Assembly (NCBI GenBank): GCA_944350485.1
Contig: CALVPE010000042.1
Location: 1-39,181 of the forward strand
Direction: 5' to 3'
Length of the DNA: 39,181 nt
Source: an uncultured Bacilli bacterium
Lineage (GTDB): Bacteria; Bacillota_I; Bacilli_A; RF39; UBA660
Notes under the pieces: model-generated
Databases searched by the model: none
Told to the model about the DNA's origin: nothing
The model's input: the letters and a program-made list of their open reading frames with translations, nothing else
Shown: positions 1,274-10,694 of the stretch, in pieces
Layout of the letters: the number at the start of each line of letters is the position of its first letter
How positions within the stretch are numbered: the first letter of the stretch is position 1
Position numbers and translations under genes: made by a program

Positions 1274-2629
1274 ATGTTTCAAAATAAAAAAATATTAATT
1301 TTAGGAGCAGCTCGAAGTGGAATTGCTTGTAGTAAGGAATTAATAAAATTAAAAAATGAAGTTATTTTAAATGATAGTAAAGATGAAACCTTAATGGAAA
1401 AAGATAAAATTCAAGAATTAAGAAATTTAGGAGTAACTTGTTTATTTGGTTCACACCCTGATGATTTACTTGATAAAACATTCGACTATCTAATTAAAAA
1501 TCCTGGTATTAGAAATGATCATAAGTATGTTTTAAAAGCCAAAGAGCTAAATATTCCGGTTATAAATGAGGTTGAAGTAGCTTATTATATGTTACCTAAA
1601 AATGTTAAGTTAATTGCTATTACTGGAACTAACGGAAAAACAACGACAACGACGTTAACTTATAATATTTTAAAAGAATATTATGGCAAAAAGGTTCATT
1701 TAGCTGGAAATATTGGTTATCCTTTAACAAGTATTCTACCAAGTATTAAAGAAAATGATATTTTGGTTATGGAAGTATCTTGCCAACAACTTGCTAATTT
1801 AGAAACTTTTAAACCAGATATAGCTTTACTAACTAATTTAAGTCCGGCTCATATTGATTTCTTTGGAGACTATGAAACCTATAAACAAGTAAAAGTTAAA
1901 TTATTTAAAAATCAAACGGAAAAAGATATTGCTATTTTAAATTATGATAATCAAGATAGTTTAGATAGCACTAAAAATATTAAAAGTAAAAAGTTATATT
2001 TTTCTTTAGAGACAAAGAAAGACGCTAGTTATTTAGATAATTATTTATATTATCAAGATAATAAAGTTTTAAACCGAGATTTAATGTTTTTAAAAGGGGA
2101 TCATAATGTTAGTAATGCTTTAGGGGCTTTAATAATTGCTAAATTAATGGAAGTTCCAGATGAAGTAATAGAAAAAGTTTTAATTAATTTTCACGGAGTT
2201 ACTCATCGATTAGAATATGTTGATACTATTAAAGGAAGAAAATTTTATAATGATACAGAAGCTACTAATATCAAATGCACTCAAATTGCATTAAATGCTT
2301 TTAAAGAACCAACAATTATCTTTTTAGGAGGTCTTGAAAGAGGACAAAATTTTCTAGAACTTACTCCTTATATGAAAAATGTTAAGTTAATAGTAGGAAT
2401 TGGAGAGTGTCGCTTAAGAGTTAAAGAATTTGGAGAGAAATTACAAATAAAAACTATTATTTATGAGTATTTAAAAGATGCTTTTAAAGAGACTTATTTA
2501 AATTCAACTGATGGTGATATAATTTTATTAAGTCCGGCATCAGCTTCTTGGGATCAATATAAAGAGTGTGAAGAAAGGGGTGATGAATTTAAAAAATTAG
2601 TTGAGGAATTAAAAAATGAAAGTAATTAA
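1274..2629 (+). CDS. murD: UDP-N-acetylmuramoyl-L-alanine:D-glutamate ligase MurD
   Basis: A cytoplasmic peptidoglycan-precursor enzyme that adds D-Glu to UDP-MurNAc-L-Ala with ATP. It is 451 residues, normal for MurD. The N-terminal Rossmann-like UDP-binding domain opens with [10 protein letters not shown] (7-16). The central ATPase has [10 protein letters not shown] (118-127) as P-loop, and the conserved Mur ligase [20 protein letters not shown] segment (about 188-207) includes the His and Lys region. The C-terminal domain has the [11 protein letters not shown] stretch and the [12 protein letters not shown] motif typical of MurD. The ribosome site is GGTGA just before the ATG. It is separated from the usual division/wall cluster and heads a short unit with the DUF1653 gene (14-base overlap) and enolase. 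Confidence 0.95.
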
Positions 2630-2861
2630 AAATCGTATTTATAAACATTTTAAAGGAGATTGTTATTTAGTTTTAGATATAGCAATTCACTCGGAAACAG
2701 GAGAAAAGTTAGTAATTTATAGATCACTTTATGGAGATGGTACCTTATATGCTAGACCTTATAAGATGTTTATAGAAAAAGTTGATTATGAAAAATATCC
2801 TGATGTTAAACAAGAATATCGATTTGAACTTCAGGAAATTGTAAGTAAAAATAATAAATAG
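2616..2861 (+). CDS. DUF1653 family protein
   Basis: An 81-residue protein matching the DUF1653 pattern: a start like [20 protein letters not shown] (about 4-23), then [20 protein letters not shown] (about 33-52). This is a compact beta-rich fold with no known catalytic role. Its start lies inside the last codons of murD (14-base overlap), which points to translational coupling. The AGTTGAGGAAT sequence in murD could serve as ribosome site. Cytoplasmic; no signal or membrane segment. The function is not established, and its position between a wall ligase and enolase does not define one. Confidence 0.8.
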
Positions 2862-2876
2862 AAAGTGAGATAATTT

Positions 2877-4106
2877 ATGAAAATAGCAAATGTTATAGGA
2901 AGAGAAATATTAGATTCAAGAGGAAATCCTACTGTTGAAGTTGATGTTATTTTGGAAAATGGGATTGTTGGACGAGCTGAGGTTCCGAGTGGAGCTTCAA
3001 CTGGGGAAAGAGAAGCTTTAGAATTAAGAGATGGGGATAAAAAACGTTTTAATGGAAAAGGTGTTTTAAAAGCTGTTAGTCATGTTAATCATGAATTAAA
3101 AGATTTAGTAGTTGGCAAGGATGTTTTTGATCAAAAAGGAATTGATTATGCAATGCTTGAATTAGATGGCACGAAAACTAAATCCAATTTAGGAGCTAAT
3201 GCAATTTTAGGTGTTTCCATGGCTGTTTTAAAAGCGGCTGCTCTTGCTAAAAATATGCCTTTATATAAGTATGTTGGTGATGGAAAAACTTTACCACGAC
3301 CAATGATGAATATTATTAATGGAGGAGCACATGCTGATAATAACTTAGATTTTCAAGAATACATGATTATTCCAAATCGCGATACTATTAAAGAAAGAAT
3401 AAGAGTTGGAGCAGAAGTTTTCCAATCTTTAAAAAGTGTTTTAAAAAGTTATGGATATGTAACAAGTGTTGGTGATGAGGGAGGTTTTGCTCCTAATTTA
3501 AAAACTAATAAAGAAGGTTTTGAACTTATCATTGAAGCTATTAAAAAAGCTGGATACGAACCAGGAGTTGATGTTAATTTAGGAATAGATGTAGCAGCAA
3601 GTGAGTTCTATGAAGATGGAATTTACTATTTAAAAGGCGAAGATAAAAAATTAACAACCGAGCAATTAGTTGATTTTTACCAAGAATTAGTTACAACTTA
3701 TCCAATTATTACAATTGAAGATCCTGTTGCTGAAAATGATTGGAATGGATTTAAATTAATAACTGAAAAATTAGGTGATAAAATTCAATTAGTAGGGGAT
3801 GATTTGTTTGTTACTAACAAAGAATGTTTACAAAAAGGAATTGACATGCAAGCAGGAAATGCTATTTTACTAAAAGTAAATCAAATTGGTACTATTACTG
3901 AAACTTTAGAAACAATTGAACTTGCTAAAAAACATGGCTATAAAACAGTTATTTCTCATCGAAGCGGAGAAACTGAAGATACAACGATAGCTGATCTTGC
4001 TGTTGGACTTGATTTAGGGCAAATAAAAACTGGTTCAATGTCAAGAACTGATCGAATTTGTAAATATAATCAATTAATAAGAATTGAAGAAGAATTAGAA
4101 AAATAA
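2877..4106 (+). CDS. eno: Enolase (phosphopyruvate hydratase)
   Basis: Converts 2-phosphoglycerate to phosphoenolpyruvate in glycolysis; a cytoplasmic, Mg-dependent enzyme. The N-terminal domain has [16 protein letters not shown] (9-24) and the mobile loop [11 protein letters not shown]. The barrel domain carries [10 protein letters not shown] (catalytic Glu), [21 protein letters not shown] and [15 protein letters not shown], the last holding the catalytic Lys. [18 protein letters not shown] completes the active site. At 409 residues it is about 20 shorter than Bacillus enolase, mainly because the C-terminus stops soon after [11 protein letters not shown]. The ribosome site is weak (AAAGTGAGA). 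Pyruvate kinase, which uses its product, lies 3 kb downstream, but the other lower-glycolysis genes are absent here. Confidence 0.97.
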
Positions 4107-8619: not shown

Positions 8620-8671
8620 AGTTTCTTTTAAATTTAAAAATTTTATGATAAAATTTTAAGTAGGTGTGAAT

Positions 8672-9667
8672 ATGTGTACAAATGTTTTGTTTTTAAAAGT
8701 ATTATATTATGCAATGACAGCTTTACAAATTATTAGATTTTTAGTTCCGCTTGGTTTAATTGCTATGATTAGTATTGATGTTTATAAAGGAATGATGAGT
8801 GCAGATGAACCTAAAGATGTGATAAGAAATAGTTCAAATCGAATAGTAGCTGCTATTGTAATCTTTGTTTTACCAACAATTGTTAATCTACTTGTTTCGA
8901 TTTTAGAAAATACTTTTTCAACATCTTTAGATTATCAAAGTTGTTTAACTAATGCTAGTAATTATAAATACTATGAGGATTTAGAAGTTGCTATTTTAGA
9001 AGAAACAAATGCTACTAAAAGAGAAGAGTTGCTAAAAAAAGCCCAGCAATTAAAGGAAGAAGAAATTGAAAGAATTAATCAAAATAAGAATAATGTAGAT
9101 ATTGGATTAGGAGATGGAACAGTTGTTGGTAGGAAATATGATTTAACGGAAAAACAATTAATAAATATTGCTAAAGTTTGTCAAAGAGAACAAGGAAGTC
9201 CAGTTGGTGCAGCAGCGGAAGCTCAACTTATGGCTAATAAATATGAACTTGAAGTTTTAAAGAAAAGTAAATGGAGTAAATATAGTTTTTATAATTATGT
9301 TATGAATTGTGATTGGTGGGCCCCAGCTAAAAATGGCACATATAGTAGTACTAAATTAAAAGATAGCATTTTGGCATCTGTTCGTGAAGTTTTAATAAAT
9401 GGGCAAAGAACAATACCTTTTTATATCAATGAACATGATTGGACTGGTGACATAATAAGATTAAAAACAAATGGTAAAGTTTATACAAGTAGTTCGGATT
9501 TTAAAAATACTAATAATTATGTCAAGGATGTAACTAGAGTTACAACAAAATATAATAAAACTAGTAGTACACCTTATTGGATATATTATTATCATCCTAC
9601 TCCAAAAAGTGATCCATTTGGTTATACTGTCTCTGCCAAAAAGCAGATTGATAATCTTAGTAAGTAG
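8672..9667 (+). CDS. Two-helix membrane protein with SleB-like cell-wall hydrolase domain
   Basis: A 331-residue protein. The ATG at 8672 is chosen over an in-frame GTG at 8666 because TAGGTG, the likely ribosome site, overlaps that GTG. Two membrane helices (about 14-36 and 57-79), separated by a short polar loop with SADEPKDVIRNSSNRI, resemble the TrbC/VirB2 pilin-like two-helix pattern common in uncharacterised gut Bacilli proteins. A charged helical linker (about 98-140) follows. From about residue 157 the sequence LTEKQLINIAKVCQREQGS, with E173 at the position of the catalytic Glu, and the later SVREVLINGQRTIPFYINEHD, resemble the SleB/CwlJ Hydrolase_2 family of peptidoglycan hydrolases. 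The domain match is by eye only. It is the first of three envelope genes; a weak TATGAT -10 lies at 8644-8649. Confidence 0.6.
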   Translation: MCTNVLFLKVLYYAMTALQIIRFLVPLGLIAMISIDVYKGMMSADEPKDVIRNSSNRIVAAIVIFVLPTIVNLLVSILENTFSTSLDYQSCLTNASNYKYYEDLEVAILEETNATKREELLKKAQQLKEEEIERINQNKNNVDIGLGDGTVVGRKYDLTEKQLINIAKVCQREQGSPVGAAAEAQLMANKYELEVLKKSKWSKYSFYNYVMNCDWWAPAKNGTYSSTKLKDSILASVREVLINGQRTIPFYINEHDWTGDIIRLKTNGKVYTSSSDFKNTNNYVKDVTRVTTKYNKTSSTPYWIYYYHPTPKSDPFGYTVSAKKQIDNLSK

Positions 9668-9674
9668 GTGAAAT

Positions 9675-10247
9675 ATGAAAAAATATTCAAAAATTATTAT
9701 TATTTTTACAATTATCTTAATAGCAATCATAGTATTAAAATTTATAACAAATGTACCAGTTCCTACAAAAATATCCAATTATCTTGTTGAAAATGGTTAT
9801 ATTAAAAATAATGATTTATTTTCAAAACAAATATCAGATCTTAGTTTAAATGAATATCAATATTATGTTTCAAAAAATATACCAGCTACATATTCAATTA
9901 ATTATTTTAGTATAGGTAATTTTCGATTAACAAAAAATCTTGATAACTATCAAGATAAAATAACAACCTCCTTAACTGAAATTTATGATTATAAAGATAA
10001 TTCTTTAACTTATACATATCGTATTACTTCCAATGATGTCAATGCTATTTTTAAAGGAGAATACAAAGAAACCAACAAGGAATTTATCTGTCAAAAAGAA
10101 TTTGCTTATGGTGTTATAACTAACAGTTTTCAAAATACTATTTGTGAAGGTATAGAATTACAAGTAAGTAATTTTAGTTTAGAAGCAAAATTATTATTTA
10201 AAAATGCAACTTTCATAAATTACATGAAAAAACAAAAAGTTGAATAA
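9675..10247 (+). CDS. Small membrane-anchored protein of unknown function
   Basis: 190 residues, not recognised. Residues about 6-24 form one hydrophobic helix after MKKYSK (signal anchor; no lipobox Cys and no clear cleavage site). The rest is predicted to be outside the cell and is rich in Asn, Tyr and Ser, with two Cys (in FICQKEF and TICEGIEL) that could pair. TAGGTGAAAT at the end of the previous gene serves as ribosome site, and only 7 bases separate the two genes, so they are surely co-expressed. A role alongside the SleB-like protein in wall remodelling is a guess from context. After its stop about 100 AT-rich bases without a gene precede the holin-like ORF. Confidence 0.7.
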   Translation: MKKYSKIIIIFTIILIAIIVLKFITNVPVPTKISNYLVENGYIKNNDLFSKQISDLSLNEYQYYVSKNIPATYSINYFSIGNFRLTKNLDNYQDKITTSLTEIYDYKDNSLTYTYRITSNDVNAIFKGEYKETNKEFICQKEFAYGVITNSFQNTICEGIELQVSNFSLEAKLLFKNATFINYMKKQKVE

Positions 10248-10350
10248 AACTAAAAATATATTTTTTGAAATTTAAAATCATTTTTTAACTTCTTAATAAC
10301 TAATAATAATAAATCAAATTTATTAGAATAAATTTAATTGAGGAGTTGAA

Positions 10351-10608
10351 ATGGAAATAGTTGATATTATGACAATTGTAACATTTTTTGTTACTTTGAT
10401 ATTGGGATTTTTTTCTAAGAAAAGTAAATTTATTAAAAATGAAATCATCCCTATTCAAAATATTTTGGTTGGTTTAGTTGTTGCTGTAGTTGAGTGGATT
10501 ATTACTAAAGATTTTCAAGCAGCAATTGTTCTATCAGGTTTAATAGCTGGTGGAACTTATGATATTTTTCATAATTTAAGAAAAATAGTTAAAAGTGAAG
10601 TAGAGTAG
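10351..10608 (+). CDS. Holin-like small membrane protein
   Basis: 85 residues with three hydrophobic stretches (about 6-21, 33-50 and 56-70) and a short charged C-terminus ending KIVKSEVE. The pattern KNEIIPIQNILVGLVVAVVE followed by WIITKDFQAAIVLSGLIAGG and a YDI motif closely resembles small phage holins of the A118 type, from memory. Phage holins make membrane holes that release or activate a lysin. No other phage gene is nearby except the SleB-like hydrolase 0.7 kb upstream, so this looks like a domesticated or relic lysis part. GAGGAG precedes the ATG. Its stop codon lies in the 5' arm of a terminator. Confidence 0.65.
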   Translation: MEIVDIMTIVTFFVTLILGFFSKKSKFIKNEIIPIQNILVGLVVAVVEWIITKDFQAAIVLSGLIAGGTYDIFHNLRKIVKSEVE

Positions 10609-10630
10609 AAGAAATTGCTACTCTTTTTTT
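10602..10630 (+). terminator. Rho-independent terminator of the envelope cluster
   Basis: A 7-bp stem AGAGTAG (10602-10608)/CTACTCT (10618-10624) with a 9-base loop is followed by a T run to 10630. The 5' arm includes the stop codon of the holin-like gene. Confidence 0.85.
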
Positions 10631-10694
10631 GTTTTTCTACACTTTTAAAACACTATCAAATTATTGTAGATTAGTGGATTTTTAACTTAAAATT

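Follow-up and report, generated by a model that had tools for sequence, protein, structure and literature searches.

A pilin-like membrane hairpin fused to a domain of predicted SleB-like fold, and its conserved partner gene, in uncultured gut Bacilli

The window analysed here, a stretch of 39,181 nucleotides, is contig C42 of a 1.15 Mb metagenome-assembled genome (MAG) of an uncultured Bacilli bacterium that consists of 75 contigs. All genomes used for comparison are likewise fragmented MAGs, and the named relatives are chiefly uncultured Bacilli from gut samples of rabbit, sheep and goat. The three open reading frames proposed in the initial annotation are all present: gene A (8672-9667, forward strand), which encodes 331 amino acids, gene B (9675-10247, forward strand) with 190 amino acids, and gene C (10351-10608) with 85 amino acids. 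An in-frame GTG codon is located at position 8666, upstream of the start of A at 8672. The spacing between A and B is 7 nt, C begins 103 nt after B, and the neighbours of the A-B pair in the window are housekeeping genes. A terminator had been postulated at the end of the cluster; at 10602-10631, a 7-bp stem followed by a run of T looks plausible by eye, but its fold is no better than that of shuffled sequences (z -0.49) and it was not listed by a scan allowing loops of up to 8.

The general anatomy of A, a fusion of a membrane hairpin, a charged helix and an enzyme-like domain, is well supported by its open reading frame, its homologs and an AlphaFold2 model, and the two-helix segment and charged helix described earlier were both recovered. 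The pilin-like hairpin, delimited by a hairpin-specific HMM and an alignment, is hydrophobic and comprises residues 2 to about 80 (8675-8911, forward strand). It is flanked by two cysteines: the conserved Cys2 precedes the first transmembrane helix, while Cys91 (8942-8944, forward strand), an invariant column in the alignment of A orthologs, follows the second, and a disulfide bond between the two is possible. The charged helical linker spans residues 98-143 (8963-9100, forward strand) according to the secondary structure of the model, which is of low confidence in this part. It leads to the putative catalytic domain of some 175 residues, 155-331 (9134-9664, forward strand), referred to here as the EQG domain, with Glu173 (9188-9190, forward strand) as the proposed catalytic residue. 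When A was used as a query against 58 relatives, full-length A was found in 12 of 17 genomes of its own genus; apart from the protein encoded in the window there are 13 copies in 11 other genus genomes, sharing 40-55% identity.

The domain was initially taken for a SleB/CwlJ-like hydrolase. In the AlphaFold2 model, which was built on 14 homologs, residues 155-330 reach pLDDT values of mostly 85-97, and the two best structural matches obtained with VIA-align are both catalytic domains of SleB (4fet_A with Z 11.1 over 119 residues at an rmsd of 2.8, and 4f55 with Z 10.8), the highest unrelated PDB entry scoring Z 6.2 on another part of the model. Foldseek, run on the whole model, returned nothing under E 1 and did not report the SleB chains at E<=10, so that the fold assignment rests on VIA-align as the second aligner. 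The Hydrolase_2 profile (PF07486) matched neither A nor its 13 homologs even at E 10, whereas two other loci of the same genome do match it. Searches of A against Pfam, PHROGs and NCBIfam gave nothing useful, and PDB sequence profiles of A, its C-terminal domain and the hairpins yielded either nothing or composition noise from GPCRs. Glu173 and Gln174 are invariant in all 14 A orthologs and are retained in every related EQG domain that was read. In an hhalign comparison of A with Hydrolase_2 proteins of the same genomes, Glu173 was aligned to their glutamate, at a probability of only 10.5%; the catalytic glutamate of SleB is essential (PMC12331253). We describe the domain of A as SleB-like by predicted fold and not by sequence profile.

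The likeness to SleB and CwlJ, spore cortex lytic transglycosylases of the PF07486 family, comprises the predicted fold (Z about 11) and an N-terminal glutamate that may stand in the same register. It also extends to gene order: YpeB, the partner of SleB, is encoded downstream of sleB, and A, too, is followed by a gene for a membrane-anchored partner. Unlike SleB and CwlJ, A lacks a detectable profile match, carries extra C-terminal strands and has a hairpin anchor in place of a signal peptide and a peptidoglycan-binding domain, and it would act outside a spore context. Among the 58 relatives, the EQG domain was not found outside the genus. It recurs in related genera inside hydrolases of 800-1378 amino acids encoded next to VirB4-like and VirD4-like genes (L084, L085, L086, L088 and L092), and further versions are secreted with a signal peptide only (L089 and L090).

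Gene B encodes an N-terminal membrane helix followed by an extracellular alpha/beta domain. It is a true partner of A: the two genes are adjacent in 12/12 genus genomes that contain A, and among all open reading frames at hand every relative of B adjoins a hairpin hydrolase, and these hydrolases include an amidase-like fusion as well as products of A-like genes outside the genus. A single additional copy of A, in genome G007, has no B beside it. A duplication in G007 (L044:8411-10985) has resulted in the order A-B-A, with one B between two copies of A. The B model (pLDDT 91.4) consists of a helix, an antiparallel sheet and a long helix, and a fold search provided no clear match, the best Z of 7.2 being tied with unrelated entries among which were several p32/MAM33-like sheets. 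In genome G001, a hairpin fusion that is amidase-like by motif, without a Pfam match, is paired with a B homolog (L117:3056-4162 and 2430-3026).

The holin-like label of gene C is borne out by a match to Phage_holin_5_2 above the cut-off (E=1.9e-7). Of the three-gene order noted originally, however, only the A-B part persists, as C never adjoins A-B outside the window; C is not part of the A-B module. It is present in 14 of the 17 genus genomes, one of these matches being weak, and in several relatives it lies near fmt. It is a chromosomal gene in single copy, which the genus has retained near fmt and away from phage genes.

The search of the 58 relatives also gave many matches confined to the first 100 residues of A. 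An HMM was built from these matches and run on the fetched loci, which retrieved 125 different proteins: in 48 the hairpin is N-terminal to another domain, 36 consist of little else, and in 25 an ectodomain comes first. Cysteines occur on both flanks of the hairpin in 95 of 116 members, the background for either side being 0.14 and 0.23. The loop between the helices contains 0.208 lysine or arginine residues per position compared with 0.044 outside and is richer in these residues in 115 of 116 members, on which basis both ends are placed outside the cell; the predicted topology is thus one of two membrane helices, a charged cytoplasmic loop and both termini out. Across 198 sampled genomes of the class and 295 of the phylum, the hairpin is restricted to the family of the window organism; the class sample includes 25 genomes of this family, 23 of which encode it. 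In the genome under study, a CHAP/NlpC fusion on contig C4 (L034:9915-10934) has lost half of each helix together with the intervening loop; the hairpin is complete in its orthologs from other species.

The initial comparison of the hairpin with VirB2/TrbC proved to be close. A profile of stand-alone hairpins only, which occur in tandem, matches the hairpin of A with E=3.3e-20, and by this measure the two are homologous. The T4SS_pilin family (PF18895) in turn matches 23 of 26 stand-alone hairpins, with a best value of 4.8e-7 and mostly below the cut-off, some stand-alone relatives exceeding it (G011:C28 and G012:C3). Of the A orthologs, 6/14 are matched (best 4.9e-4) and none surpasses the cut-off in a genome scan. 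As membrane composition alone produces GPCR matches of up to 3.5e-5, much of the pilin claim is carried by context and topology, and sequence profiles by themselves are no proof that A belongs to SleB or to VirB2. An N-terminal segment of VirB6-like proteins is likewise matched by the hairpin HMM, with E-values from 1e-10 to 3e-6 (L055:9943-12291, L109:6145-8256 and L110:3583-5685), and VirB6 and pilin hairpins may share a common ancestry.

The fusion to a SleB-like domain is one of dozens, the majority of which involve wall enzymes. The hairpin is also joined to VanY (3.7e-11), CHAP/NlpC, L,D-transpeptidase/YkuD, M23, GDSL, C39 and esterase domains. Genome G115 alone contains at least 14 copies of the hairpin, with additional fusions to domains judged by motif and not by profile (two VanY-like, one D-Ala carboxypeptidase-like and four in tandem). 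The four tandem fusions are encoded in one operon (L196:1755-7436, contig C1) and carry GDSL, CHAP plus C39 and two further C-terminal domains. In genome G008, the hairpins of two fusions, L052 (esterase-like) and L127 (CHAP/NlpC), are almost the same and their C-terminal domains differ, which represents a recent domain swap as read from the sequences; the hairpin tree, poorly resolved with its 103 columns, served for this call only. In a literature search that included Patescibacteria and covered few subscription journals, we found no description of pilin-hydrolase fusions.

The stand-alone hairpins are encoded last in an operon that also comprises genes for TadA (T2SSE, 7.3e-27), CpaB (RcpC, 1e-6), TadB, TadC and a TadE-like protein. 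In six other genera (G021, G024, G026, G028, G029 and G033) the hairpin gene lies between those for TadA and VirB4 on one contig, all three being collinear within some 13 kb. Further along this contig, G028 encodes VirB6-like and PrgI-like proteins, VirB4, a wall hydrolase, a lipoprotein and VirD4. In the genus of the window the cluster is split, with Tad and hairpin genes on contig C68 and those for VirB6, PrgI, VirB4, a hydrolase with SpoIID-like and C39 domains and a lipoprotein on C35; in G002, VirD4 is next in the cluster (T4SS-DNA_transf, 8.7e-55). The VirB6-like proteins are hardly detected by the Pfam TrbL profile. A close VirB4 is encoded in 17/17 genus genomes, and a relaxase was found neither in the window genome nor in 9 of the 11 other genus genomes searched. 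The TadE-like protein of the Tad operon on C68 (L053:6092-6643) has a match to DUF5411 (PF17424) at 4.9e-34, suggestive of a role for this domain family. The VirB4 and T4SS_pilin matches on G010:C41 and G038:C5 are near-identical in genomes of different families and probably belong to a shared integrative element.

Three further known systems come close. Gram-positive type IV secretion systems (T4SSs) are reported to lack VirB2 and VirB5, with Patescibacteria as the exception (PMC12857230); in the latter, arrays of T4SS_pilin genes are found close to VirB4 and relaxases are absent (PMC12102498). The stand-alone hairpins resemble these PF18895 arrays in that they are short two-helix proteins, some with a signal peptide, whose genes form divergent tandem arrays in the vicinity of VirB4, in a monoderm T4SS that has no relaxase. 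They differ from them in occurring in Bacillota, in being joined to a Tad operon and in the many copies fused to extracellular enzymes. The Tad/Flp pilus machinery is similar with respect to the TadA, TadB, TadC, CpaB/RcpC and TadE-like genes preceding the stand-alone hairpins, but these hairpins have two helices and are not Flp-type single-helix prepilins. VirB1 homologs of Gram-positive bacteria, finally, are membrane-anchored wall hydrolases (PrgK, TraG of pIP501 and Orf14; PMC12857230) with extracellular peptidoglycan-cutting domains such as that predicted for A from its fold, and the T4SS hydrolase of the window genome with its SpoIID-like and C39 domains is of this VirB1-like kind. A differs from them by its location away from the cluster, its pilin hairpin anchor and its SleB-like domain.

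A further connection emerges from the genes downstream of the fusions. VanY fusions are accompanied by a separate family of anchored partners that is also found downstream of NlpC fusions in other genera, just as the B family is associated with both SleB-like and amidase-like enzymes. A lipoprotein family pairs with C39, CHAP and VanY fusions and with the T4SS hydrolase itself. Among all open reading frames at hand, a profile of the lipoproteins following T4SS hydrolases picks exactly three lipoproteins downstream of hairpin hydrolases, all in G115 (E 1.5e-20 to 1.5e-16, or 8e-13 to 1.4e-7 when the signal peptide is omitted; next match 0.02); in this one relative the partner lipoproteins are homologous to that of the T4SS cluster.

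The pilin resemblance, in the initial annotation one of several features, is the main point, as it ties A to the family-wide hairpin fusions and to the Tad/T4SS cluster. We lean towards the view that A and B remodel the wall as a VirB1-like satellite pair, held in the membrane by a VirB2-like pilin hairpin and working for the Tad/T4SS machine. A wall-remodelling module was among the original suggestions and agrees with the SleB-like fold, the invariant glutamate, the extracellular orientation indicated by charge and the conserved partner. The hairpin of A, which is related by descent to VirB2-like pilins of the chromosomal Tad-plus-T4SS, would span the membrane twice and have its two termini exposed, the charged helix would space a SleB-like lytic transglycosylase with Glu173 as active residue into the wall, and B, anchored by one helix, might stabilize or restrain A much as YpeB acts on SleB. 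Together they could then open the wall locally for the machine or dock with its pilin pool. Enzyme activity, topology, disulfide, the role of B and physical association with the machine are elements of this scheme that we infer. Its link to the machine is drawn from genomics, and the threads leading to the T4SS are the catalytic domain, which T4SS hydrolases also contain, and a partner lipoprotein that is shared in one other genus. Several observations count against such a link: A-B lies outside the machine cluster, with A on C42, VirB4 on C35 and Tad on C68 of a fragmented assembly; the T4SS_pilin scores of A stay below the cut-off; A is absent from five of the 17 genus genomes, some of which are incomplete MAGs; and an hhalign alignment of B with the T4SS lipoprotein is limited to the membrane helix. 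Nor is the co-occurrence of hairpin and VirB4 independent evidence, because both are lineage-wide.

It is less probable, but a serious alternative, that the hairpin is simply a pilin-derived anchor with both termini out, re-used for housekeeping wall enzymes of the SleB-like, VanY and NlpC/CHAP types that make no contact with a machine. Across the genus, A-B, a VanY pair and the NlpC/CHAP fusion occupy shared chromosomal sites by RNase J, der and truB, their three complementary activities would fit general wall turnover, and the secreted versions of the domain manage with a signal peptide alone. On the other hand, the cysteine pair, a proline and the K/R-rich loop are pilin features kept over 116 members, a degree of conservation that mere anchors would rarely show, and the T4SS cluster possesses the same catalytic domain and partner lipoprotein. 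A bolder extension of the preferred machine-serving reading, which we regard as doubtful, would make the hairpin a general module of a hybrid Tad/T4SS with VirB2-like pilins in Bacillota, with dozens of wall and surface enzymes built as pilins and inserted, displayed or moved by the machine.

Rather improbable is a function of the hairpin as a trafficking tag, by which fusions would be loaded into the Tad/T4SS or displayed on it; they might then be antibacterial effectors that degrade walls, with B conferring immunity. A single conserved N-terminal module in front of many C-terminal enzymes, the domain swap within G008, the copy number in G115, the small membrane-anchored partners that follow many fusions and the lack of a detected relaxase in the window genome would all be compatible with this idea, but the core fusions are syntenic and kept vertically, and partners of any one family accompany several types of enzyme. 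This lack of enzyme specificity makes a shared role of the partners in control or positioning more likely than cognate immunity. A domesticated phage lysis cassette of endolysin A and holin C, which had also been considered, has C's holin match in its favour but is largely refuted and very improbable, as C is found at other sites in every relative that carries it, A has no viral relative among 2.9 million viral contigs, the neighbours are housekeeping genes and three hairpin-hydrolases occur at shared chromosomal sites across the genus.

Returning to the tethered wall-remodelling pair, the findings suggest a SleB-like fold outside sporulation and a machine that carries or places wall enzymes in a way that has not been described. 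Small-genome gut Bacilli would be the second monoderm lineage in which a chromosomal T4SS, free of a relaxase and joined to Tad genes, includes arrays of pilins, and to these the lineage adds a family of pilin-enzyme fusions. The long-standing question of how monoderm secretion machines cross a wall, and whether pilin modules position enzymes, can now be put to the test.
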